A program made the translations under genes and the position numbers. Of a stretch of DNA of 64,000 nt, positions 783-63,800 are shown in pieces (position 1 is the first letter of the stretch; every line of letters begins with the position of its first letter). Source of the DNA: Marisa cornuarietis (lineage: Eukaryota > Mollusca > Gastropoda > Architaenioglossa > Ampullariidae). The stretch lies in NCBI GenBank assembly GCA_004794655.1, contig SMMW01000606.1:372501-436500 (forward strand), in the 5' to 3' direction. The notes beneath the pieces are model-generated. The model was not told where the DNA came from. It worked only from the letters and a program-made list of their open reading frames with translations, and made no database searches.

Positions 783-1493
783 TTATTGTAAAGTAATGTG
801 TTTAGTTCCATTAACACGTACGACATGTATGCCGTTATCCTCAAACTTTTTAGTATTGTTCCTAGTATTCTCCACATTGATGTATTTCATACGATTGCTC
901 TTTTCTAATCTGTATGCAACAAACCAGAGTGGGGAGGTGTTCTCGCTAACAGAGCGGCTTATGTTTTCAAAATTATTTATTATTCTATCGGTGCACACAT
1001 CACAAGGCATATAGTACGAGTACAAAAGAATGAAATCTGGCAGATGACCGTGCTTTTCTGTGTACTTGCTGATAAGTGCGGGATACAGTTCTGCTAGGAG
1101 AATATCCTCAGAATGTACATCTTTACCACGTGACCGCTTTGCGTCTTTATGTGTCTTTATACTTTCGTACGGGCGGGCTGCCAGAAAGTTATCGTACAGA
1201 CTGTGGTCGATTGCTTGATCAGGTTTTGAGATCAGCAGTGATCTGAGCTCAGCAGGCAATTTGAAATTTTGAAAATATGTGCGACTGTCGTCGCCAAGCA
1301 GCAAAAATGCAAACTGACTGGAAGCGTTGATCAGTTTTTCCTGAAGCAGGTCTCTCTTTATATGAATCGCCTGCCATACTAATTCATTTTCAAGATTATA
1401 ACGTTGAGTTTTCCTCACTTGCTTCTTTGTGGTAGACCCGCCATGATAGTGCAGCAAGACTGCCAAAAGTACCGAGAAGACAAGAACTTTCAT
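783..1493 (-). CDS. Secreted AID/APOBEC-like (SNAD-type) zinc deaminase, copy 1
   Basis: A 236-residue protein read from one uninterrupted exon. Residues 1-20 form a hydrophobic signal peptide ending near HYHGGS. The zinc-deaminase signature is present: H127-S-E129, where His would bind zinc and Glu act as proton shuttle, then P163-C164-D-V-C167 supplying two cysteine ligands, 33 residues after the Glu. A hydrophobic strand (FILLYSYY, 154-161) runs into the PCxxC, a helix follows, then a strand at LWFVAY (189-194), as expected of the deaminase fold. Conserved FAFLLLGDD lies at 61-69. The two zinc-ligand cysteines are the only cysteines in the protein. Five N-glycosylation sequons (N56, N177, N185, N212, N228) fit export. 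Its paralogue is 3.8 kb upstream (4627-5316) and a broken third copy lies at 1707-1796. A lysine/arginine-rich insert of about 12 residues precedes HSE, absent from the paralogue. Family role, by analogy only: extracellular nucleic-acid or nucleotide deamination, perhaps in immunity. Substrate unknown. Confidence 0.82.
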   Translation of the reverse strand: MKVLVFSVLLAVLLHYHGGSTTKKQVRKTQRYNLENELVWQAIHIKRDLLQEKLINASSQFAFLLLGDDSRTYFQNFKLPAELRSLLISKPDQAIDHSLYDNFLAARPYESIKTHKDAKRSRGKDVHSEDILLAELYPALISKYTEKHGHLPDFILLYSYYMPCDVCTDRIINNFENISRSVSENTSPLWFVAYRLEKSNRMKYINVENTRNNTKKFEDNGIHVVRVNGTKHITLQ

Positions 1494-1618
1494 CTTCGTT
1501 GAGTCTAATGAAAATAGCTGAAAACAAAATGATCAATGTTGTCGTCATTTTCTTCTGTTGAGCCAATAGTATGTGAACTGACTTTTTTAGAAGATGCCTT
1601 CTAAACATTATTATATAA
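1494..1618 (-). promoter_or_regulatory. Probable promoter / 5' leader of deaminase copy 1
   Basis: On the minus strand a TATA-like TTATATAA lies at 1611-1618. A pyrimidine-rich TTTTGTTTTCAG, resembling a splice acceptor, ends at 1518, 24 nt before the ATG. The paralogue has the same arrangement (TATA-like at 5491-5499, TTTTCAG 30 nt before its ATG), which argues that it matters. Without splicing, an out-of-frame upstream ATG at 1548 would sit in the leader, so a 5'-UTR intron is plausible. No donor can be fixed from sequence alone. Confidence 0.4.
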
Positions 1619-1706
1619 GCTCAGCGAAGTGCTCAGAATACTACGGTTTCTCGTCATCGTCTTTTTTTTTAAATAGAATAAAACGTTCCAAATATGGATA
1701 ATTACC

Positions 1707-1796
1707 TCATTTAGTCGTCAGGCGAAAACCGCCGTACGACTCTCCATGGAAGTGCAGAAAGACAACCAAACAGATCGATAGTACAAGAAATTTTGT
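1707..1796 (-). pseudogene. Relic of a third deaminase copy (signal-peptide portion)
   Basis: The minus strand reads T-KFLVLSICLVVFLHFHGES and about ten more residues before a TGA at 1707-1709. It aligns without gaps to the signal peptides of the two intact genes (MKVLVFSVLLAVLLHYHGGS in copy 1), sharing the leading Lys, the LV pair, and the LHxHG motif. The start codon is replaced by ACA (1794-1796), and similarity stops shortly after the signal peptide. No HxE or PCxxC follows. It lies about 215 bp upstream of copy 1 on the same strand. A donor-like GAG|GTAATT at 1704-1705 follows the stop, so it could be retained as a noncoding 5' exon of copy 1. I prefer a plain relic. Confidence 0.6.
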
Positions 1797-1809
1797 TTTG
1801 CATATTTCC

Positions 1810-4626
1810 AACCAAATAATGTGGAAAGCAGGTGAAAACTGAATAGGACTAGGTGATAAACCTTATGCAAATTACACAGACTGTTCAAATAATTCTGATA
1901 TCAGTATTATCCTTCCTACCCTCCCTCCTTCCACTCTTGCTACTTTTCTACCCATCTTTCTCTGCAGAATCACTATATTCTCTGTTTCTTTTACTTGGTG
2001 CCTTTTTGTGTTTTCTATCTTTGTTTTCTGTTTGTTGTCAGTACTGTCGTTTATTCTTCCGTCCCATGTGTTCTATCCATTTAGTCCATGTCTCTTCCTT
2101 GTTTTAAGCGCTAAGCGTATGCTATCTATGAGTGTGAATATGCGCTATAAAAATCTTCATTTATTATTATTAGTAGTATTTATTATTACCTCACTTTCTT
2201 TTTATTGACTTCATTGTAAGTCTGGGAAAATTAATTCACTAACCTTGAAAGCGTGTTTTTCACGAAAACTTCTGCCGGGACGAGTTTCGAGTCACTAATA
2301 CAAGTTTCGTTACGGGTGATGCAGGCAGCAGTTGTCATCATCGACTGGCGGCGAGGTTCATGCACTCTTGGATTCTTATAAATGTTGCTTGTTGTTCCTG
2401 GAGTGCTCATTAACTGATTAAAGGTGGCTTAGAAAGAATTTTTATTAATTTCCTGTCTTCAACAGTCTTGACCCTTGAAATTTTGTGTAGGCATTGAGAT
2501 TTTACACTTTTTACACCTTTACATTTAATTTAGACTTCTGGGAATTTATTAAGCAACAATATTATAGCTTTTGTAAAAAAATCTCGTGCTTTTTTCATAA
2601 AAAACATAATATTTAAACTTTAAAGCATTGTTTTTGTGTGTTTTCTGTTTTCCATTTCCGATCACCACCTCCTGCAATGAATCTGTTTGCTGTGGCCTTG
2701 GTCATATATTCTGAAACACTTTTTTGTGACATTCTTTAGGTTTCACTTATTTATAAGAACAAGCTTTACTTAGTTTATTTTGGAATTTGATATAGTACAG
2801 TGTTTTATCGCTTATTTGGGATGTACATAAAGAAACTGAAAGTAAGTGATCCATCTTAACATAATTCGTAGCAAATCTGATTCGAAACAAAGCTAATAAG
2901 GCTTAAGGATCATAAGTAGTGTCAGGTGGCTAATTTGCAGAACTTATGTCCTAGTTAAAAACCACGCATGCTTTTGCTTCTTCCTGCAAAATCCCTACAT
3001 GACCTGTTTCTGATGAGAGGTCTGCGAGATGTCTGTTGCACATCTTTTGTCGATTGGTGTGCCCTTAACTCTATACAGTTCATCATAGTGTGCAATGTCC
3101 TAAAATTATATTTACTTGCTGGTTGAGCAAGAAATTGAGAACTTTAAAGAATTAAGTGTGGCAGCAGACAGCATTGATGGCTGTGCTTTGGTTTCTAGTC
3201 CTACACTTCTGTCTTCTTGTCTCAGTGCTCTATATTCTTTCCTCGAATTAGCAAAAGATCTTTTTCTGTGGTCATGTTAATATTTTAAAAAATATATTTT
3301 GGTCACATCTTTATGCTTCAATTTTTTAAAAGAATAAGCTTTGGGTTGCTTTAAAATTTAAAAAGTGTACATTGTGTATTGCTTTTGTTGGATTTATGAA
3401 AAAAAAACTGAGATATGAAAGAAAGTGTTGGTGTACTGGCCTATCAAAGTCAGCATTTTATTCACTTTCAGTTTTTAATGCACATTTACCAGGAAATTAC
3501 AAATATTAAAACATTCATAACTTCAAAACTCTTGAGCTATAGAAAACGAAACTGAAAGCAATCTACATTATTATTATTATTATTTATTCATAAATCAGCT
3601 TGGCGTAGCTAAAGATAGTGACATTGATTGGTTGATAGACAAACAGTCCCCACAACAATTTTATACAACGTAGTGAGCTTACTAGTAATTTCTGTTGTAA
3701 TCTTTAGACAGTGAACTTATAATTCGTCACCTTCACAATCCATGAGAAAAAAATTGCATACAATTTAAAATAATGTGAGGCAAAGCTATTATATCCACAA
3801 CATGAAATACTACACAAAAAATTTGTAAAAGCATAAATAATAACAATTTCAGTCCAAGAGAGTGCTAGAATATACATTTCAGGACCTAGCAGGTCAGCAT
3901 GGTAGAGTTTCTACATAATATATGGGTAATTCTCAATACAAAATACATTGATGTATAGAGTCTCTTAGCATATGATAAAGAAAAGCAAAGAAACGAAATT
4001 GCGCTAGGATAGGGTAGGCTAGATGATGTCAGTGTAGTCGTGTCTACTGTCTCAGTAGAAACCGTGTAGACCTTTAAAACAAATCTTAGAAAGCTTTGAT
4101 ACAATACTGACACTGAGCTGTGGGAAACAGTAGCACATGGCCGTGAACAAATGGGATTTAACCAAAGCATATGTTATTAAAACTTAAAAACTACTCAAGA
4201 AATTGATAGCACTAAAAAATAAACAATATGTTAAGAACCCCAAAACCGTGTCTATAGGCCACATAAGTAGCAGTGCTTAATATTTCATGATTTGTGTCTA
4301 TAGTGTATAAAATCAGTTTACTATTGCGAGAGAAATGGAAGGGAGTAACTTTGTGTCATTAAAGTATGAAAATGTTATATCAAACAAAGCAAAAATATAA
4401 TTATATACAACCATGAGGCAGACAATAGCAATTTCATTCTGGGAATTTTAGAGAGAAAAGTAAAGATAGGGGAAGAGGGGTGGGAGTGAAATCTTGTTTC
4501 TACCCTTGACAGAAAATGCACGGAAACAAAGAAATAAAACTGAAAGATAAAATCAGTGCATAGCTCTTATTTACTTTTTCTGTCGTCAAACATTTTAACA
4601 AGTCAAGGAAAAGACTTCAAGCTTGT
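1810..4626. other. Intergenic region between the two deaminase-like genes
   Basis: AT-rich, with no convincing coding sequence. Open frames here are short and unlike known domains. It contains the first copy of a duplicated block (2901-3235) and a short TTA repeat near 3569-3585. Confidence 0.55.
2901..3235. repeat. Duplicated upstream block, copy 1
   Basis: Shares long diverged similarity with 6587-6925. Shared landmarks in the same order are GGCTTAAGGATCAT, ACTTATGTCCTAGT, GACCTGTTT..GATGAGAGGTCTG, AACTCTATACAGTTCATC, ACTTGCTGGTTGAGCAAGAA and TTTCGGTTTCTAG-like ends. The block lies about 1.4 kb upstream of deaminase copy 1, and its partner about 1.3 kb upstream of copy 2. The roughly 3.7-kb offset matches the gene-to-gene offset (about 3.8 kb), so it is most simply part of one tandem duplication unit. 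An unrecognised dispersed repeat is the alternative. Confidence 0.65.
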
Positions 4627-5316
4627 TTACTGCAGATGTTCTCTCTTTCTTTGCTCTATTTCGCTGAACAGTGATGGCTTCTTGGCGAAGTCGACTTTAA
4701 ATACGCGGATACCATTTGCTTTCAACCGAGCAACATTCCCTTTAGTTGTCTGCTCATTAACGTAAGGAACATTCTCACTTTCTCCTACATGATATCCAAC
4801 AAACCACTTCACAGCAGACATTTCCATAGTATGATTATATTTAAATTTTATTATTGCAGTGGTACAATCGCCACACGGCATTAGGTTAGAGTACAAGAGA
4901 ATAAACTGGGGCTTGTGATTATACCTTGTCTTATAAGCGTTATAAAGACCTGGAAACAGTTCCCTGAGAAGGAGGGTCTCAGAGTGAATCCTTTTGTTGT
5001 CCGACGGTACAGCTACCAATAAATTATCGTAGCTACTTGGATCCGGGTTTTGTCCTGCCAAGATCAGAGTAGGGTTAGGATTGAAAGACCCGACAGAGTT
5101 CAACAAAGTGTCGTCGCCCAGCAACACAAAAGCAAACTGTCGTCCTTTTTGGATCATTGTTTTATCCAGTAGATAACGCCTAATTTTGTTAACCAGCATG
5201 TGCAAGTTGGAATATCGTTGATTCTCTTGGTTTGCATGCTGTCTACTCTTCATTGAAAGGCCTCCATGACAGTGGAGAATGACTATCAGAAGCACTGACG
5301 GGAGGAGAACCTTCAT
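4627..5316 (-). CDS. Secreted AID/APOBEC-like (SNAD-type) zinc deaminase, copy 2
   Basis: A 229-residue single-coding-exon protein alignable to copy 1 along its whole length. Residues 1-20 are a signal peptide ending near HCHGGL. The catalytic signature is H111-S-E113, then P147-C148-G-D-C151, again with 33 residues between Glu and Pro. FAFVLLGDD (61-69), the FILLYS strand (138-143) and the KWFVGYHVG strand (170-178) match copy 1. The mature protein contains only the two zinc-ligand cysteines, and there is one N-glycosylation sequon (N161). The segment before HSE is shorter than in copy 1. A charged C-terminal extension (residues 213-229, rich in Glu, Lys and Arg) is unique to this copy. All metal-binding and catalytic residues are intact, so both genes look functional. 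The deaminase assignment rests on motif and fold pattern; nucleic-acid activity is inference. Confidence 0.82.
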   Translation of the reverse strand: MKVLLPSVLLIVILHCHGGLSMKSRQHANQENQRYSNLHMLVNKIRRYLLDKTMIQKGRQFAFVLLGDDTLLNSVGSFNPNPTLILAGQNPDPSSYDNLLVAVPSDNKRIHSETLLLRELFPGLYNAYKTRYNHKPQFILLYSNLMPCGDCTTAIIKFKYNHTMEMSAVKWFVGYHVGESENVPYVNEQTTKGNVARLKANGIRVFKVDFAKKPSLFSEIEQRKREHLQ

Positions 5317-5499: not shown

Positions 5500-6586
5500 A
5501 TTTTAGCTTCTGTTTCCCCTAAGATCATTGGGTAGACTCATCTTTTGAATTAACTTCGTTATGCTGATGATTAGTTTCGAAAGAAATCCATTGTCATAAA
5601 GAGAAAAAAAGCTGCTTACATAAACAAGAAACAAGCGAGGGTGCGAACACCTTGTGTTAGACCAGGTGCAGGCTGATCCGAAGACTGCAGATTGCCAATG
5701 ATGTTCTCCAAAAAGGCGGCCTCAGTTTTTAGTAGCAGATAAAATATGGCGTAGATGGATTTTCGCTCTCAAATATGGTTGGGTGTTATCATGTTGGTTA
5801 ATTTCTTCCTTTCTTAGAATCGTCTGAAAGTTAATAAGCTCTTCCGAACGTTTGTGTTCCTTCTATATTTGAGAAATTCTATTAATAAAAGATAAAGAGT
5901 TTTGAGAGAATTGATAATGACTTTAAACACTTTCGATTGACAACAAAATGAATGGTTATCGTCATCATTATCATCGTCGTCATCGTCATCATCACCACAC
6001 TACACCACACCACCACCACCTGTCATGAAGGTCAGCGCATCTTGGGGTTGAAGAGAAGCGAAATTTTTTTTTAGTAAAAGTAACGAGTAACAACGAGAAA
6101 GTAATTAGCCAGGTCTTTTACAAATAGTTTAGAATGCTCCAGAAGGGGATAGTGAGATAGTATAACAAGTCGTCATCGGCCAGCGCTTCATTTCCCACAG
6201 GAACACGGCAGGTGCCAAGACAATACGTGCTTCTGTTGGTACTTCATGCAGAGTTGTGAGAAGTTCCCATTGGTACTATCAGCAGTGTCCTGTAACTTTT
6301 ATGAATAGCCCTTTGATGTAAGTGAGTGTAATTTGTTGTTTCTTTTTCAATTTCGTGTATTTTAAGCAACAAGTGTGGTGACATTCCTTTTCTAGTTAAA
6401 ACAGACAGGGACTGCACCAGAGAGGTAAAGTTTGTCTTTGCTCAGGACCCCAAGAACATGCAAATGTAACGATGATTTCGCGAGTGTTGGGCCCGGATGT
6501 GAGTGTCCTTCACAACGACTTTCCTGAAAACATAGTGCAGGAATACACAGTTCGTAGGAAGTCTAATTAAGACCAAACCTAGCTCG

Positions 6587-6925
6587 GCTTAAGGATCATG
6601 TTAAGTGGTGTCCAGTGACTAATCTATGTTACTTATGTCCTAGTCAAATAGCCTGCCTGCTTTTGCATCCTGCTGAAGAAATACCTCTAACCCTGTCATG
6701 ACCTGTTTGTGATGAGAGGTCTGCTAGATGTTGGTTTCACATCTTCTGCCAGTGACGGTTTACTATTAACTCTATACAGTTCATCCCCATGTTTAATGTC
6801 CTACAATCCTATTCACTTGCTGGTTGAGCAAGAAATTGAGAACTGTAAAGAGTTAAGTCAGCGGCAGACAGTACTGATGTCCGTGTTTCGGTTTCTAGCC
6901 CTATACTCAGGTCTCGGTTTTCTTG
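6587..6925. repeat. Duplicated upstream block, copy 2
   Basis: Diverged partner of 2901-3235 in the same orientation, lying upstream of deaminase copy 2. Small indels and substitutions are scattered along the whole length, so the duplication is not recent. Confidence 0.65.
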
Positions 6926-7012
6926 TCACATTGCTTTCTTTTGTATGTGCGTTTCCCTACCCAACCCTATTCGTGTCTGTTTGCGTGCCATTATGAGTAT
7001 GCAGTTGTGTGA

Positions 7013-8714: not shown

Positions 8715-9290
8715 GTTAAAGACCAACCTGAATGGTTTGCGTTTTTTGCAGATATCGGTAGATATAGGCGATATAAACCTAACCTGTAAATTGCAGCCTC
8801 CAAAACGCATTCGTTAATTAATTATCCGCTAGCAAAGTACGCGATTCGCACCTGCGATCAACGAGCGCCGTTAACAGTGTACTACGTCACAGTAGTGCAC
8901 CATTCACAACATTGACAGCAGTCAACACCAAACAGAGAAAGAGAGAAAATGAGCGACAGTTCGGATTATTCGGACGTTAAAGTCTGCATTTCTCGTGCTA
9001 AAGTAGCAGTTTTTCAGAACCACGGGAAATACAGACTTTCAACGTCCGAATAACCCGAACTGTCACTCATTCTCTCTCTCTGATTGGTGTTGACTGCTGT
9101 CAGTGTTGTGAATGGTGCACGAGTGTGACGTAGTACACTGTTAGCGTCGCTTGTTGATCCTAAGTACGAATCGTAGCGGATAATTAATTAACGGATGGGT
9201 TTTGGAGGCTAAAATTTACAAGTTAGGTTTATATCGCCTGTATTTACCGATATATGAAAACTTCGAAAACCATTCAGGTAGGCCTTTAAG
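8715..9290. mobile_element. Foldback (long inverted repeat) element
   Basis: A 576-bp imperfect palindrome. The left arm (about 8715-8997) and right arm (about 9021-9290) are reverse complements with scattered mismatches and small indels. Matching landmarks include GTTAAAG..CCTGAATGGTTT at the outer ends, GGCGATATAAACCTAA, AATTAATTATCCG, GTGTACTACGTCAC and TTATTCGGACGTT near the centre. The loop is about 25 bases. No transposase and no certain target-site duplication, so this is a nonautonomous foldback/MITE-like element of unknown superfamily. Confidence 0.75.
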
Positions 9291-11597: not shown

Positions 11598-12641
11598 CTA
11601 GTGTCGGGATAATTTATTCTTCGTAGCTGAAGCGTTTTGAAAGCCACACACCAGTCTATGAAATTCCTTTCTAAAAGTTTTACCGCTTAAACAATAAAGA
11701 TAGAAATCAATGGAATAGTTAACATGAGTAAAAAGTACTGTAACTGAAAGAACAAAATTAAGGACGGCATATTTTTCAGGGCTGAGATGAGCGTCCATGA
11801 AAAAGAACTGGTACATTAGTGAATACATAGCAAAAGGCGAAGTAAAGAAAATGAACGACAGGGAAGTAACGATCAATGTTACAGTCATCGATGCCGCTCT
11901 TTTTTCCCGAGAGCTGATTTGCTGGGAGGTCAGTCCTGTACCGGTAGAAAAATTACCCTGAATGGAAACTGCCACTGTCTTGATCAACACTAAGTTAGAA
12001 CCTATGAGAACTAGAAACGGAATCAGGGAACACGCGAACAGGTTTTCAATCACGTACCAATACTTGAGGTAGAAAATGTAATAAGACTGGTCAGTAAAAC
12101 TTACTGAACACCATCTGAAAGTCGTGATGTTTCCCACGCTCACTGTGACCACATGAAATCCGTAGAGTATGTGAGACTGTAGTAGCAAGGAGAAGCAAGT
12201 GAGAAGAAGAACAAAGATTCGAACTCTTCTTTTCGTACACACAGAGTTGACTCTATGAGGCCAAATCACCGATGCGGATCGTTGCACCGCCATGGCAGCG
12301 AGAAGCCAGGACGAGAAAAGGGCACTGGACAGAGACAACCAACGGTCTATTTTACAGACGGCATCGTCGAGGGCAGAAAAGTCGATTCCGAATTGATACA
12401 TTATGTATCTTCGCAGTCCGTCGGTGTACAAGACTATGAGGTCTGATAAGGCTAACACTGATAGATAAAATGGTAGACTGGCATGTGGTTCGTTCACTTT
12501 GGAAAAAACCCACACGGTCATTATATTTCCAAATGTTCCCAGGCAGAGAATAAAGGGAGCTACAGTTTTCCAGATAAGTTTTTCCATAACTTCTAAAGTG
12601 TTTTCAGCCATTTCGAGTTTCCGTGCCAATATTTCTCTCAT
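11598..12641 (-). CDS. Orphan rhodopsin-class (class A) peptide-type GPCR
   Basis: A complete intronless gene for a 347-residue seven-helix receptor. Helix 1 carries G38-N39, helix 2 the LALSD motif with D67, helix 3 begins near C96 (partner C178 in extracellular loop 2), and helix 6 contains TSPF with P269. The helix-3 DRY motif is replaced by Q120-R121-S122, keeping only the arginine. The helix-7 NPxxY is replaced by D312-F-Y-L-Y316, followed by CLSGKTFRKEF as helix 8, a pattern common in invertebrate peptide or orphan receptors. The first ATG is used; M11 and M19 are other possible starts. N-terminal N14 is not in a sequon, while N171 (NIT) is in extracellular loop 2. Ligand and cell type cannot be told from sequence. 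I saw no second receptor or receptor relic nearby. Confidence 0.88.
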   Translation of the reverse strand: MREILARKLEMAENTLEVMEKLIWKTVAPFILCLGTFGNIMTVWVFSKVNEPHASLPFYLSVLALSDLIVLYTDGLRRYIMYQFGIDFSALDDAVCKIDRWLSLSSALFSSWLLAAMAVQRSASVIWPHRVNSVCTKRRVRIFVLLLTCFSLLLQSHILYGFHVVTVSVGNITTFRWCSVSFTDQSYYIFYLKYWYVIENLFACSLIPFLVLIGSNLVLIKTVAVSIQGNFSTGTGLTSQQISSREKRAASMTVTLIVTSLSFIFFTSPFAMYSLMYQFFFMDAHLSPEKYAVLNFVLSVTVLFTHVNYSIDFYLYCLSGKTFRKEFHRLVCGFQNASATKNKLSRH

Positions 12642-15405: not shown

Positions 15406-21730
<6,325 letters not shown>

Positions 21731-22024
21731 CTTTCAAATCACCGTTTCCATCATTCCGAGAGTCTTCGAAAGACCTGTGGTGGGTCTGATGTATATAATA
21801 GCAGTCTTCAACCACTCCAGTAGAATACCATCAACACTGTTAATACTTTCTCTTTTTTCGTTCAACAGAGCTGGCAAGCTGAGTAGGAGAACAACTAGTA
21901 TTCCCACAATCAGATGAAGTGTCCACGGCAGTCTAAGGTCAGCTTTTGGGTCGACGTGATTTTTGGTCAGGGCTTCATCTTGTGTTTGGTCGTGCAGCAG
22001 TTCCCAGTAATCTTCTGTCGCCAT
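21731..22024 (-). pseudogene. Orphaned, frameshifted first exon of a third GH13 gene
   Basis: The minus strand opens with an ATG (22022-22024), a charged tail, a membrane helix (LHLIVGILVVLLLSLPALL) and WLKTAIIY, matching exon 1 of the two intact genes. Straight after IIY the frame breaks. The expected [19 protein letters not shown] stretch continues in another frame as QTHHRSFEDSRNDGNGDLK, up to a donor AAAG|GTTAGT in the same relative place as in the intact genes. The exon is 294 nt, a multiple of three, whereas the intact exons leave one extra base, consistent with a net +2 (or -1) change. No further exons follow before gene A. An alternative first exon for gene A is possible but would be out of frame. 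Confidence 0.7.
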
Positions 22025-23170
22025 GTTGGTTGTTAAAGACACGCTGAACGCGGATATGGGATAAATATGACTGGTAAACAGTCACGAGCGCCGACTGGTC
22101 GTTACCTGGCACGTAAATAAGGCCAGAGAGTGTGTGCGTGTGTTGATTTAGAAGGCCGGTGAGGTAGTACAAGAATAAGTGATTGGCGGGGAATGATCCT
22201 CCTTGCTTACCAAGTGGTTGAGATGGCCTCGTGCAGACCCGTGTTTCTCATATACAGCAAATCAAATATACCAAGCTCTCCAATGAGCTTGTTTGTTTGT
22301 CTTTTCTTGGCGTGAACTGCGTGTGCTGCTCAGTAAGCTACAACATTATATAAATATATAAATCAGTATTTGCAAGTGTCGGAATTCTCGTCTACTCACA
22401 GATATTAACAGCTCGCACACGCATAAAGTGCACGCGTACGGCGTAGGAATACGGATGTTTGGTTGGCTTGGTTTGCCGTACCAGCAACGGAGGCTATAAA
22501 TCACGACGAGAAAAGAGACACACTTCATCACAACGGTAGGATGTTTATTTGAATCCTTTTAACTTCTGCTGAAAGAACAGGTACTTATCGGCTTAGTTAT
22601 AGCATGGCTACATTAAACACCCCGCAAGAGAGTTATATGTTGTTTTGTAAATGTAAGAAAGTTAAAACACTAGAGATTCCACGTAGTTATTATCTTACAT
22701 TATTAGACATTACTGGCTACTTAGCTACATGTGAAAGTATAAAACATTTTTGTACTTATTTACGAATTAGTCGCATCAAATGATTTCAAACATTGCGTAA
22801 GTATTTGATACATCACACTTCTCTTATATAAGTCATAAGACCTGTACAAGGAAGCATTGTCACCAATAAACAAGACAGGCATTTCTTAACCCTAGACAAG
22901 GTAATTCATCTTGTTTGCAGGATGTGAGAACAGAAAAAAATGCATCAAAAACATTAGAACTGTGCTGTTAAAACCAAGACTTTATCAAAAGGTAACAAGA
23001 AAGTTATGCATTTTACAATAATTATAAATAGAGTTCATAAATATATTTAGCTGTAAATATTTTCACACATGCACACTGAATATGTTGGTAGGTAGCTTGG
23101 TTACTGTTATGTATAGATGATGACACAGATAGTATTTATCTGAGTGTATGTGAGCACTCGCACTCGCACG

Positions 23171-23224
<54 letters not shown>

Positions 23225-23521
23225 ATGACTAAGGTGGAGAAGGAAGATGAGAGTAATAGAAATTGAGAGAGGTTAAGGATTTCTCATAGTGAATAGAATG
23301 AATGCATCATGATGAACTACATAATTATTTCGAGAAACAGGTATTCTTTCAACCTGCTTTTGCTTAAAGCTAAGACGATCCTATTGAAACACCCTTCCAT
23401 TGTCTCCCCGGCTTGAGTCACCAATCGCCAAAATATTGTGGACTATAACTTCTGCGTACTTGTTACAAACACAATTGTCATAAAACCCTTGAATCATCGT
23501 TGTACATTTGAGTATAAACGC
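22025..23521. other. Intergenic gap between the orphan exon and GH13 gene C
   Basis: AT-rich with a long GT microsatellite (23175-23223). No coding exon recognised. Confidence 0.5.
23175..23223. repeat. GT dinucleotide microsatellite
   Basis: About 24 uninterrupted GT units downstream of GH13 gene C. Confidence 0.9.
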
Positions 23522-23527
23522 TTTATT
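23522..23527 (-). terminator. Candidate polyadenylation signal of GH13 gene C
   Basis: AATAAA on the minus strand, about 70 nt past the stop codon at 23598. Position fits a poly-A signal. Confidence 0.45.
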
Positions 23528-23597
23528 TTAGACATAAAAATGTATTGAAATTTTAGAAAAATGTTGTAAATAAAAGGTCGTGAACAACGCTGCTCGA

Positions 23598-31022
<7,425 letters not shown>

Positions 31023-37821: not shown

Positions 37822-38129
37822 ACAGTTACCTCCCTGTCTGCAATGTGCATCTGTGGACGAAAGTCGTTTCCAGACTGATTAAAAGGCAAAGAAACATTAA
37901 GGGCTTCGCCCACGAGCAGCAACGCCACTGGATCTGGGGCGCCAAGAGGGGAATTTTCTCTACTTTCTCTCTCTAGCTACAGAACGCGCTCTGAAAATTC
38001 CCCTCTTAGCGCCCCAGATCCAGTGGCGTTGCTGCTCGTGGGCGAAGCCCTTAATGTTTCTTTGCCTTTTAATCAGTCTGGAAACGACTTTCGTCCACAG
38101 ATGCACATTGCAGACAGGGAGGTAACTGT
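37822..38129. mobile_element. Near-perfect 308-bp palindrome (foldback/MITE-like)
   Basis: Two 137-bp arms (37822-37958 and 37993-38129) are reverse complements with a single mismatch that I could find, separated by a 34-base loop. Outer ends read ACAGTTACCTCCCTGTCTGC. No coding capacity and no clear target-site duplication. Confidence 0.85.
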
Positions 38130-58860: not shown

Positions 58861-60451
58861 CTCTCTCGCTGTTACATTTCCATTTCCTACTCTTCCTATT
58901 CGAAAACCAAAAAAGATAACCCGAAGAAAAAAAAATACTGTGTGAGATTCTGATCGGGACGTCGAGCGCAGTTCGGAGGGCGAGTAGGGAATGGAACGCT
59001 GTGATGAGCTATTTTTTAGGGTACATTAAAGGAAACCACCCTAAAAAAAAATGCTTGCGTTATCTGTTATGTTTTTGCTAGCGTCGGGATAAGATAACCT
59101 GTTACTAAGTTTGTAAATAATGAATGATCCCCCCTGTTCTCCTTGCTGCACTGCGAGTTTTTGCCCCACAAGGGAACTATTTGAGGCGCGAAATAGCACA
59201 TTCCGGCAGCTGATTTCGCCCTCATGATTTCATGCTGCAGTCATGAGCTCGGGTGTAGGTTTGTTGAAAGACTTGCGCTGATACAACCGCATGAGTTTTT
59301 TAGAATTTGCGAGGTTTGTTGTTACGTTGGAAGGGACCAAGAGTATATCATTGACTGGCATCAGCTGTGGGCGCTTGCAAGACTTTGCATTTCTGGAAGC
59401 TTGAAGAAACAAAAAACTGTAAAGGTTCGAACAGTGACAATAGGCATATGACTACCTTTCTTTTACCGAGTTTTAATTTTTTTTTTTAGTACCATTACGC
59501 TAAAATATTGGCTTGTAGTGAAAGATTTTGCAGAAAGAACTTCCGAGATCTTTCTGTACTTTTTAAAGATAATTTTGACATAATAGTAGAAGGGTTTTGG
59601 CTACATGTTGTTATTTAAGTAGGCCTTTTGTCTTGTTGGATAGCTGCACACTTCATTGTCTTGTTGTTGCAATTCTTTATCGTCTTGTAGACTGTAAAGA
59701 CATTTTGTCATCTTGATGCCTCTATCGACGCATTATCATTTTGTACATTTTACAGACACGAAATTGTCGTGAAAGCTTGTCCAATCACTTCAAGTCCTTT
59801 GATGGCTGAGTAAACTCTTCAACAGATGTAGATTTAATGACACATTTCTGGTCTTGTTGACAATGTGAGCACTTTTAATCTCTTAAGTTGTAGACTTTAA
59901 TTTATTAGCTTGGTAGCGTAGCTTACAATGCTTCGCGCCTTAAACAAATTACCATTGTTGTCTTTCCACTTTATTGAGTTATTTGTTCAGACCTACGTCA
60001 AGACATAACAAGGTTTCTGGCTTTTGTTGGCTGCTTGTGTTGAGGGGTTTTGTTGGTACACCACAGTATTGCCTGTTAGCATTGGCTCGTACTGGTGTTG
60101 ATCTGCCAACTGCTGGAGTTTTCCTTGATACACAGCGCTGCTCACACGCAATCGAGTTCACTAACTCTAAGGGAATAATGTCAAAACACAAAGCAATGCA
60201 TCTTCATTAAATTTTTTCTGCACGTTGTTTTCGCGCTGAATGATAGATCGCGGTTGCAGAGTGCATGAGGAAGGTCTCGTTCGCATGCTAATATTAAAGC
60301 CAGTTACCACCTGATGCGTTTCATGCAAACAATGCAAGCAACCGTCCGTGCTTTTTCCGTTTGTGCCTCCGTCAAGTTTCACATAAAATAAATATAAAAA
60401 TAAAACAGATTAATGTTTAATTAATGGTAAATGCACACCATGATAGAACTA

Positions 60452-60897
60452 ATGGGAAACCTAAATCTAAAAAGACTATTTAAGAGTTCACAAGAAATTG
60501 AGGTGTAAGAAGGTACTTGCAGCCTGAGGCTCATGTAGTCAGCCTGCTCCAGAGAACTTAGTTAGCCTTGAAACCTTGCTAGCTGAAGAGACTATTGTAA
60601 GTTTTGGTAATGCATGAACCACTATTGTCTTCAATAAGGTGGGAGGTTTAAAAGTATACAAAACAACTATAATGGAAACCTAAATCTATAAAGAAGATAG
60701 ACTATTTAAGAGTTCACAAATATAGAGATGTAAGAAGGTATCTGTAGCCTGAGGCACATGTAGTCAGCCTGCTCCAGAGAACTTAGTGAGTTTTGAATCC
60801 TTATTAGCTGAAGAGACTGTTGTATGTCTGGGTTATGAATGTATCACTATTGTCTTGAATAATGTGGGATGTGCAAAAGTATACAAAATAATTACAA
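60452..60897. repeat. Two-copy tandem duplication, 220-bp unit
   Basis: Copies at about 60452-60671 and 60672-60897. Shared landmarks in order are GAAACCTAAATCTA, GACTATTTAAGAGTTCACAA, GTAGTCAGCCTGCTCCAGAG, TAGCTGAAGAGACT, CACTATTGTCTT and AAAAGTATACAAAA. Moderately diverged. No coding frame. Confidence 0.8.
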
Positions 60898-63800
60898 TGG
60901 ATGGACAATAACATTTACATTAGATGAATTGGCTGCCACAAACGACTGCAACAGCTGAACTAATAGTCGGTTGAGCGCAAGCAAGGTAGATAAGGCTCAA
61001 CACAAGAATAACTATTGGAATTTGAGCAACAGTCATAGCAGGCCGCCTTACCGCATTGTGAATTTGCATAGGTACTCTTATACCATGTTAAAGTCTGTTC
61101 TCAATTATATAGAATGGGTGTATGTGTGTGGATGTGTATGCATGTTGTTGGTTTATTCTTTGTTTTTCGCTCTTTCCAAATTTTCAATTTGTACCAGATT
61201 GTGTACCATACTTCTTGCCGTCACTTTGTGAAAGAGAAATAAACAGTCTGAAAAAAAATTCCATTTTAGTCATATTCATCCATAATATAAAGCAAAAGAT
61301 AAACAGAAAAATGAAGAAAATAAAAAAAGGGGGAGAAAGGGAGAGAACCGGATTTCTCTACGTATACGGGGACAAGATTGTCTCAAAGCATAAGTTTCTG
61401 CATAGTGTTTTCTGCACATTTAAAGAGTCCAATCTTTTTTTTAGTGACAATTGTATCCTTTTTTCCTCTCATGAATCTGCATTAATGACCTCCATTAAAA
61501 ACTGTCTATTCAAGTAATAGACCTGCATTTATAAATAAAGTTATTTGGGAACAGTAAATTGTTCAAGAAAACTGTATTAATGCATTAGGCATATAGTTAC
61601 AGAGCTTTTCTTAGGTTTATAGTCAAGTAATGTAGAGTTAGTGCCTCTTGTATGAAATCACCCACCTTAAAAATGTTTTAATCGATTTTTATACCTGTCA
61701 TGCACTCATGCCGTCATAATGATGACACTGATGTCATAAAGTGCAAGAAGACTAGATGAAAAATCGATCCAGCATGGTTCTCTTATTCCTCCATCTTCTT
61801 CTCCCCCTATAAAGCAGCGAGGAACAAATCTTTGTTCCTTACAAAGCTACTGACAAGTAAATGTCAGATGAAGAAATGAATCAATGCCTACCATAGCACA
61901 TCTTTAAGTCCCCTCCCCCCCCCCACATACCTGTTTAGGTCCATGTAATCGGCAATTTTTTGTTTCATTTTTAAAGAGGATGGAGCTTTTCCATAAGATT
62001 TAAGGTTTTATGTCGTGTTAGATTTTGGTTTAAGGTTCTGGCTGGTTGGTGGCTTTTTAGGCCACAACACTTCCTTTTACGTATTACCAACCCTTTTCTA
62101 ATATTTTGTACTTGCTATCATATAATGTATAACATTACCTTCTCTCGTCGTGATATACCCTTATTTGCTGGCATGGCAAACCCCCATATAACTGTGACAT
62201 TAATCAGTTGTCATAGGCCAAGATCAAACAGCGTTTCCTAAAATAACTTTGTTTGTCAGATACTAGGTACGTGTTGGCTCTTGCTTTTATTTTAGCCTCG
62301 GGTTAACAGAGCCGAGTTGAGAGAAGTAAGCTGAGGTTAAAGTACACTTGTGACGCAGTCGTTACAGGGTCGTCGAACAAGAGATGACTTGTTTATTGTT
62401 CATTCGAGTGACAGGCAAACAAGTCAGTAACTCTAAGTCCAAGCTCTCGAAGGGAAATTACAGGTCTGGGAATGATCAGATGTGAGACGAACTTGGTTAG
62501 GAGGAGATGTGGGGGTGTTGCTGACGCTCACAGAAGTTTGGCACTATATAACAGGTACCTTAAAGCTACCTATGCTCTCTATGATCCAGGTAACTTAAAC
62601 TTACCTGTGCCTCTATGGTCCATTATGTCAGATCTTTTGAGATGGACATTTTCAAGGAGATTGAAACTAACCTCTAGAAGTCAAACTATGGGGCTGAAGC
62701 TATTTTTCTACGCTTACACAACCATCTGTCAGCACAATAGCAGCAATAAAAGCTGCGTTTATCTGAAACGATTCACCTGGCCTATGGAGATTATTGAGTG
62801 AACTCTTTTAGGCTCAGGACCCAAGGCAGTACCTGCCTGGTTGACCACAGGAAGTTCACCACATCTTCTGGCCATTGTTGTTAGTGCAAACGTGTTTGCT
62901 TCTTTCTACTGGGGTTCACATTCTGTCTTCAAGACAACTTTTTACAAAAATGTCTCATGGGTTGTCTTTCTCAGAGACTGGATATTGCCAACGACTTCTC
63001 TAATATCTGGTCCACGCCATGTAGTCCTCTCAGCGTTTCAGCCCCGCCTTCATTATGTGATGAAGTATCAATGAGTACATTTTCATTAGATCTTTATGAG
63101 CTGGCCATCATGAAAATTCACACCTGCACGCTATAGTTTTATACCTGCCTCTCCTGCGAGCAATCACATGCATTGCTCTCCTCTACCCTTGTTATTCCCT
63201 CTGCTCATAGCATCCCGCCCCGGCTTTTCACACTTCTTTGTTGCAGTAACTTAGATTCTGGAGATTAGGAAACACCTGTGGAAGATCGAAAGGCAGTTTG
63301 TACCGCTGAACGCATGGCAAGAAACAGCGAGGTAGAACATCATTAACCCATCCACACAAAATTGGAAATACAAATAAAAACAGTGGCACGTACAGGCAGA
63401 CTATAATCAATAAGCGATCTACGGAAAGTGCTTTATTTATTCTCCAGGTAGGCTTAGTTTCCCCATTTTCCTTGCTCGGCCATCTTGCAAAGAACGCACA
63501 GAGTATGCTATTTTCCATACTGAAACATTTAATTAATTTTTCTATCGTAAAAGGAAAAACATTGGACGAGGGATGAATCGTTCCGGTGATAAAACTTGTT
63601 ACATCGTTTGCGTTTGCTTATCCTTCATCTTCAGCCATTAAGTTTTTTTCTCCTATGAATTCAAGAGTCAAGTAATTTACTCTTTCATTTAAATGAAAGT
63701 GTTTGTGCCTATTTCTCTACTTGAGCATAGCAAAATTATCAAAAGACAAAAGTTTTATCCATATCTTCATAACACTGGTCGTGGATTGCCGGATCGCTTC

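Follow-up and report, generated by a model that had tools for sequence, protein, structure and literature searches.

Secreted AID/APOBEC-like enzymes have been placed in fishes, other vertebrates and sponges, with SNAD1 found across cold-blooded vertebrates, SNAD2-3 in ray-finned fishes and SNAD4 only in sponges; the authors were aware of no SNAD activity or substrate (PMC11004436; PMC8201067). Carp carry 13 SNAD1 genes. The two papers give the AID/APOBEC signature as HxE-x25-30-PC-x2-4-C (PMC11004436) and the mechanism of the deaminase superfamily as coordination of zinc by His/Cys/Cys with Glu as proton donor (PMC11004436, PMC8201067). Invertebrate AID-like deaminases are described from sea urchin and brachiopod, where their transcripts are enriched in digestive tissue; the main text of that paper does not use the words 'secreted' or 'signal peptide' (PMC5956068). 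For the snail Biomphalaria pfeifferi carrying schistosomes, one report has 'cytidine deaminase' transcripts, unassigned to family, going down (PMC5685644). No secreted AID/APOBEC-like deaminase of a mollusc was present among the literature matches listed. The founding survey, by Krishnan et al. in PNAS in 2018, is said to name lophotrochozoan members in its abstract. Here we describe two genes, A and B, from the apple snail Marisa cornuarietis that are predicted to encode secreted, AID/APOBEC-like zinc deaminases. They lie in a 64,000-nucleotide stretch (the window) of contig SMMW01000606.1, which is C481:372,501-436,500 of the searched assembly (534 Mb, 572 contigs), and belong to a cluster of five related genes, A to E.

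Both genes are uninterrupted, single-exon open reading frames (ORFs) on the minus strand (Table 1), and their products are 38% identical (expectation value, E, 3e-42). A sequence-only reading of the window had described them as two intact tandem genes for signal-peptide proteins with HSE...PCxxC, an identical 33-residue spacing and ILLYS ahead of PC, and all of this holds, with the signal peptides as a prediction: the distance from Glu to Pro is exactly 33 residues in each protein, and FILLYS stands directly before PC in both. The N-termini contain a single hydrophobic core (best 11-residue mean 3.25 in A and 3.13 in B), with no second membrane-type segment (best 19-residue mean past residue 20 of 0.87 and 1.26), consistent with a signal peptide and predicted secretion; this call is made by hydropathy and not by a trained signal-peptide predictor. 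The mature proteins are basic, with calculated isoelectric points (pI) of 9.2 and 9.6. Because the mature products of genes A-D contain no Cys besides the two of the motif, disulphides play no part in them. Upstream, a candidate 3' splice site judged by eye lies 16-35 nt ahead of the start codon in all five genes A-E, so that an intron in the 5' untranslated region is likely common to the cluster.

Structure prediction places both proteins in the deaminase superfamily. AlphaFold2 models reach a predicted local distance difference test (pLDDT) score of 82.7 and a predicted template-modelling (pTM) score of 0.78 for gene B, from a 9-row alignment, and 81.9 and 0.78 for gene A, from 12 rows. The core topology is the same in the two models: strands 1 and 2 come first, HxE then opens a helix, strand 3 (FILLYS) leads to a second helix that begins with PCxxC, and strand 4 (WFVxY), a further helix and strand 5 follow. 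The sequence-only reading had proposed structure prediction as a check for a fold other than a deaminase sandwich; both models are alpha/beta deaminase sandwiches, with the two motifs placed at the starts of two helices. A helix between strands 4 and 5 is the rule for classical AID/APOBEC enzymes, and one is predicted at residues 188-200 in B and 207-219 in A. That A and B have the deaminase fold is very likely.

Comparison of the models with solved structures points within the superfamily to AID/APOBEC. A Foldseek search of 350,542 Protein Data Bank (PDB) chains with gene B returns 15 matches at E<=0.001, every one an APOBEC3 chain, followed by dCMP deaminase, APOBEC1, yeast cytosine deaminase and AID among further APOBEC3 chains. 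With gene A, one match falls at E<=0.001 (APOBEC3G), ranks 1-25 are all deaminases (dCMP deaminase at rank 9), and unrelated folds begin at rank 26, with another APOBEC3G at 27. VIA-align gives APOBEC3 or AID as 39 of the best 50 entries for gene B and as 50 of 50 for gene A; the others for B comprise nine TadA, RibD-type, yeast cytosine deaminase or viral dCMP deaminase entries and two chains titled 3-dehydroquinate dehydratase (ranks 16 and 18). Identity in the structural alignments to APOBEC3/AID is 5-16%. The earlier assignment as AID/APOBEC-like is thus upheld, since the nearest structural neighbours of both proteins are APOBEC3 domains.

The genes are not an isolated pair. Gene A as query against its own genome gives five matches from 6 candidates, all in C481:354,338-377,816: A, B, C (minus strand, HVE in place of HSE), D (minus) and E (plus; its sequence was read only in part). 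C, D and E adjoin the window pair, and D, the close sister of B, lies outside the window. More distant copies may be present in other parts of the genome. In the protein database, gene B finds 2 proteins at E<=0.01 and a four-sequence profile finds 7 at E<=0.1 (P0001-P0007), among which the named member is LOC112560755 of Pomacea canaliculata; a twelve-sequence profile recovers five of the seven at E<=1 among 4,581 candidates, P0003 and P0004 being absent. Since this search needs common 5-residue words, it may overlook more remote relatives in other molluscs. Across the 12 sequences formed by the five cluster members and the seven database relatives, the motif residues His, Glu, Pro, Cys and Cys never vary, the Glu-Pro gap is always 32 or 33 residues, and CxxC is universal. 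The ratio of nonsynonymous to synonymous divergence (dN/dS) is below 1 in nine of the ten pairs among genes A-E, the nine where it could be computed; in most pairs synonymous sites are close to saturated, B-D being the clean one (82% protein identity, dS 0.17, dN/dS 0.56). Conservation of the five residues in all 12 sequences, together with these ratios, argues that the motif is not there by chance.

A tree of the 12 rows, midpoint-rooted, restricted to this family and carrying a program warning that two long branches meet, unites B, D, P0001 and P0002 (100/99), pairs E with P0004 (100/98), and joins A, P0003, E and P0004 in another group (96/96). Gene A is nearest to P0003 (75% identity), yet their pairing sits in an open fork. 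If the database records come from other species, these groupings imply that A and B likely split before those species did; A and B are likely old paralogs. Variation is concentrated in loops: loop 3, which precedes the catalytic helix, is 6 to 20 residues long with an entropy of 2.01 bits, and its gene A version has many Lys/Arg residues; strands 1-4 have entropies of 0.46 to 0.81 bits. Substrate choice in APOBEC enzymes is shaped by loops 1, 3 and 7. The description of the family as fast-evolving is therefore only partly apt: it suits the loops but not the conserved strands and active site, and B-D, the one recent pair that is well measured, has a dN/dS of 0.56.

Sequence profiles agree with the deaminase assignment at low scores. 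The search suggested earlier for profile hits to an unrelated family yields mainly deaminases, all below cut-off, and one weak match to ERV/ALR oxidases. The best Pfam scores belong to P0006 (SNAD4, 25.4 of 27 bits; NAD1, 24.1 of 27). Gene B matches dCMP_cyt_deam_1 at 19.9 bits, SNAD4 at 20.0 and NAD1 at 19.6; XOO_2897-deam is matched in 8 of the 12 members; and AID/APOBEC-type profiles outnumber nucleotide-deaminase profiles among the matches. In hhalign, the family aligns with six other AID/APOBEC-like proteins of its own genome, five from a cluster on contig C514 and one from a repeat array, over 48 columns around the motif (E 4.4e-5). NCBIfam gives nothing for A and B, Rfam nothing in the window, and PADLOC, run on 3 proteins, one weak restriction-enzyme match at the N-terminus of gene A (E 0.01).

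Set beside the described systems, the snail proteins share with classical AID/APOBEC enzymes the predicted fold, the zinc motif, the Cys spacing, the modelled helix between strands 4 and 5, and the nearest solved structures. They differ in their signal-like N-terminus, in their low identity to APOBEC3/AID, and in that four members (C and P0005-P0007) finish at or just past strand 5 and so do not have the C-terminal helix. Like the sea urchin and brachiopod proteins, they are invertebrate AID/APOBEC-like enzymes (PMC5956068). Like SNADs, they are small, predicted to be led by a signal peptide, AID/APOBEC-like by fold, and present as several paralogs; unlike SNADs, they occur in a snail and not in a fish or sponge and reach neither the SNAD4 nor the SNAD1 Pfam cut-off. 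All 12 have CxxC where SNAD1 has CVxxC (PMC11004436). The sequence-only reading had placed the pair among the SNADs, and this placement is not borne out: SNAD1 scores at best 14.1 of 25 bits (E 0.044 at best), SNAD4 stays under its cut-off, and no SNAD-specific feature emerged. The proteins likely work like a SNAD, whether or not they belong to that group.

The reading we prefer, with about an even chance of being correct, is that A and B are secreted polynucleotide cytosine deaminases acting in defence. Once the signal peptide is removed, the mature protein would be basic, have a mass of about 24-25 kDa and probably leave the cell. Zinc would be held by the His and both Cys, at the starts of the two helices, and Glu would act as proton donor and shuttle. 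Outside the cell, the enzyme would turn cytosine into uracil in single-stranded DNA or RNA of foreign origin, serving as an immune effector whose paralogs may favour different targets. A polynucleotide substrate is suggested by the APOBEC3 domains as nearest solved folds, the basic pI values, and the variability of loop 3 with its Lys/Arg-rich form in gene A; a role in defence is suggested by gene clustering, the variable substrate-side loop, and analogy with fish SNAD1.

Several observations weigh against this reading. All 12 sequences stay below the Pfam cut-offs, AID/APOBEC models included; gene A alone matches only XOO_2897-deam (12.6 bits, E 0.15), and the hhalign comparison with the C514 and array proteins carries a probability of only 69%. 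The Glu-Pro gap of 32-33 residues exceeds the x25-30 of the classical signature in all 12. Among the database relatives, P0001 and P0002 have predicted forms without the signal segment, and the gene model of P0007 begins 55 residues ahead of it. Loop 6, to our knowledge not a substrate loop, is more variable than loop 3 (2.38 bits), and the entropy of strand 5 reaches 1.16. Foldseek TM-scores by query length are modest (0.28-0.38 for B, at most 0.36 for A). For gene B, moreover, dCMP deaminase (2w4l) follows at E 1.1e-3, just above 0.001, and the nine TadA and small-molecule-type entries in VIA-align lie only 0.9-1.2 Z units under the top. Ranks this close make the preference for a polynucleotide over a small-molecule substrate tentative.

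There is accordingly a real, if smaller, chance that A and B are secreted small-molecule deaminases, acting on free cytosine, cytidine, cytidine monophosphate (CMP) or another nucleotide in digestion, salvage or signalling, in the manner of the secreted ADGF enzymes that act on adenosine or adenosine monophosphate (AMP). Besides the positions of dCMP deaminase and yeast cytosine deaminase just under APOBEC3 for gene B, and of dCMP deaminase at rank 9 for A, the top Pfam match of gene B by E-value is dCMP_cyt_deam_1 (7.2e-4). The fast-varying loop 3 and the several diverged paralogs would be unusual for a housekeeping enzyme, and matches to AID/APOBEC-type profiles are more numerous, a weak argument given that Pfam has more such models. 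The ADGF family has a fold different from that of the A and B models. A mollusc deaminase of the secreted ADGF group acting on AMP has been published (PMC10358891).

It is unlikely that the proteins are toxin-like weapons, released in mucus, gut, salivary or egg fluid against animals or microbes as bacterial deaminase toxins are. Predicted secretion and basic charge would suit such a role, as would the weak matches to the bacterial deaminase model XOO_2897-deam (best 2.1e-4 among the eight members that have one); the proteins have no delivery domain, and scans of bacterial, viral and phage sequences, within their sensitivity, confirmed no relative: none of the 6 pattern matches in genome_contigs or of the 93 in viral_contigs held up, and gene B found nothing in phages by tblastn. 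A bacterial or viral origin of the genes was itself rejected on these scans, which are insensitive and may have passed over an old transfer. Doubtful, too, is a catalytically dead deaminase fold serving as a binding protein: APOBEC2 and APOBEC4 provide a precedent, being described as without activity (PMC8201067), but the invariance of H, E, P, C and C in all 12 sequences, while loops vary freely, speaks for a working active site. A sulfhydryl oxidase of the ERV/ALR type, with CxxC as a redox disulphide, is rejected as extremely improbable: although ALR is the best match of the 12-row profile among PDB sequences (E 0.0064, with cytosine deaminase at 0.84 and the same order from 9 rows) and Pfam Evr1_Alr appears in 3 of 12 members (best 0.0092), the match is confined to 36-44 positions at FILLYS-PCxxC, an oxidase would leave the invariant HxE without a function, and both models are alpha/beta sandwiches, whereas the ERV/ALR fold is all-helical and binds flavin adenine dinucleotide.

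The genome holds further AID/APOBEC-like genes. A SNAD4 search of the assembly gives 66 matches, the window pair not among them; in 14 control genomes it gives matches in two, none over cut-off. Two representatives of the 66 exceed AID/APOBEC cut-offs. The C514 cluster (C514:4,227,377-4,415,229; loci L001-L008 and L010-L025) accounts for 28, all on the minus strand, diverged and with no evident signal peptide; one scores 53.7 bits with APOBEC_N, above the APOBEC_N and NAD1 cut-offs. Another 34 fall at C467:1,720,333-1,780,061 and on C25, C26 and C206 (L009), nearly all with equal score and three seemingly partial, and 4 lie elsewhere. The array units are mostly ~2.1 kb apart and some ~15.23 kb, a spacing that would fit a tandem array containing a larger repeat; the two neighbouring units compared show no difference over at least about 1.5 kb. 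The C514 genes resemble the secreted family in superfamily, HxE...PCxxC motif, a domain in one open frame, and clustering. They differ in that most have SPCxxC and in their N-termini: by eye, none of the ORFs read, which covered 27 of the 28 C514 matches, two array units and two of the four others, has a signal-like start. Since these ORFs look like a separate branch without signal peptides, they are not counted as copies of the secreted family; we read them as a branch of their own that is likely intracellular. It is possible, though we hold it only tentatively, that apple snails evolved their own secreted AID/APOBEC-like arm, independently of sponge SNAD4 and vertebrate SNAD1-3, and use it together with a large intracellular set. 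Immunity by mutation would then have two tiers, with paralogs that differ in their substrate loops editing foreign nucleic acids both within the cell and beyond it.

Possible traces of further duplication surround genes A and B. The sequence-only reading had counted two copies plus a relic; the copy number gives way to the five-gene cluster, and the relic finds some support as a signal peptide only. Its frame, which has no Met at its start, matches the gene A signal peptide over 19 ungapped residues (score 57, reached by none of 500 shuffles); tblastn of A and B at E<=10 does not report it, and no enzyme domain was seen there. Paired segments upstream of A and B, matched at 77.5% over 325 in a second blastn run, have the same order and orientation relative to the two genes, which points to duplication of a block, though they may instead belong to a dispersed repeat. 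About 5 kb beyond gene C, matches in two frames mark a broken P0005-type fragment (L031:6283-6512); in the next 10 kb tblastn found nothing at E<=0.01.

Table 1. Features of genes A and B and their surroundings, in positions of the window.
Feature	Position	Strand	Details and basis
Gene A	783..1493	minus	Met at 1493, stop ends at 783; 236 amino acids; single coding exon; ORF, relatives, AlphaFold2 model
Gene A HSE, residues 127-129	1107..1115	minus	His127 zinc-binding, Glu129 proton-shuttling, by homology; H/E invariant 12/12
Gene A PCDVC, residues 163-167	993..1007	minus	Cys164 and Cys167 zinc-binding by homology; P, C, C invariant 12/12
Gene A signal-peptide-like N-terminus, about residues 1-19	1437..1493	minus	putative; hydropathy
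Candidate 3' splice site, 24 nt before gene A start codon	1518..1532	minus	sequence, judged by eye
Relic, one open frame matching only the gene A signal peptide	1710..1799	minus	translation; ungapped match
Upstream segment of gene A	2859..3229		blastn match to 6545-6935, 75% over 392 columns
Gene B	4627..5316	minus	Met at 5316, stop ends at 4627; 229 amino acids; single coding exon; ORF, relatives, AlphaFold2 model
Gene B HSE, residues 111-113	4978..4986	minus	His111, Glu113, zinc/catalytic by homology; H/E invariant 12/12
Gene B PCGDC, residues 147-151	4864..4878	minus	Cys148, Cys151 zinc-binding by homology; P, C, C invariant 12/12
Gene B signal-peptide-like N-terminus, about residues 1-19	5260..5316	minus	putative; hydropathy
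Candidate 3' splice site, 30 nt before gene B start codon	5347..5361	minus	sequence, judged by eye
Upstream segment of gene B	6545..6935		blastn partner of 2859-3229

Elsewhere in the window, an intact single-exon frame for a rhodopsin-type G-protein-coupled receptor adjoins the deaminase cluster (11598-12641, minus; 7tm_1, 1.1e-17). Exon-like frames at 15406-25621 on the minus strand, three of them with alpha-amylase domain matches, include two similar C-terminal exons (15406-15768 and 23598-23969) and perhaps represent duplicated SLC3A-like or maltase genes. Self-complementary stretches resembling fold-back elements occur at 8716-9289 (82% over 593 columns) and 37822-38129 (93% over 310), and a tandem pair of direct repeats at 60450-60901 (84% over 234).

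The compact snail cluster, with its small, soluble-looking domains free of extra Cys, offers simple proteins in which to test for an extracellular DNA or RNA deaminase, and it could reveal if protostomes gained the secretion of such enzymes or retained it. Should the substrate prove to be a polynucleotide, defence by editing would reach beyond the cells of an invertebrate into its extracellular space.

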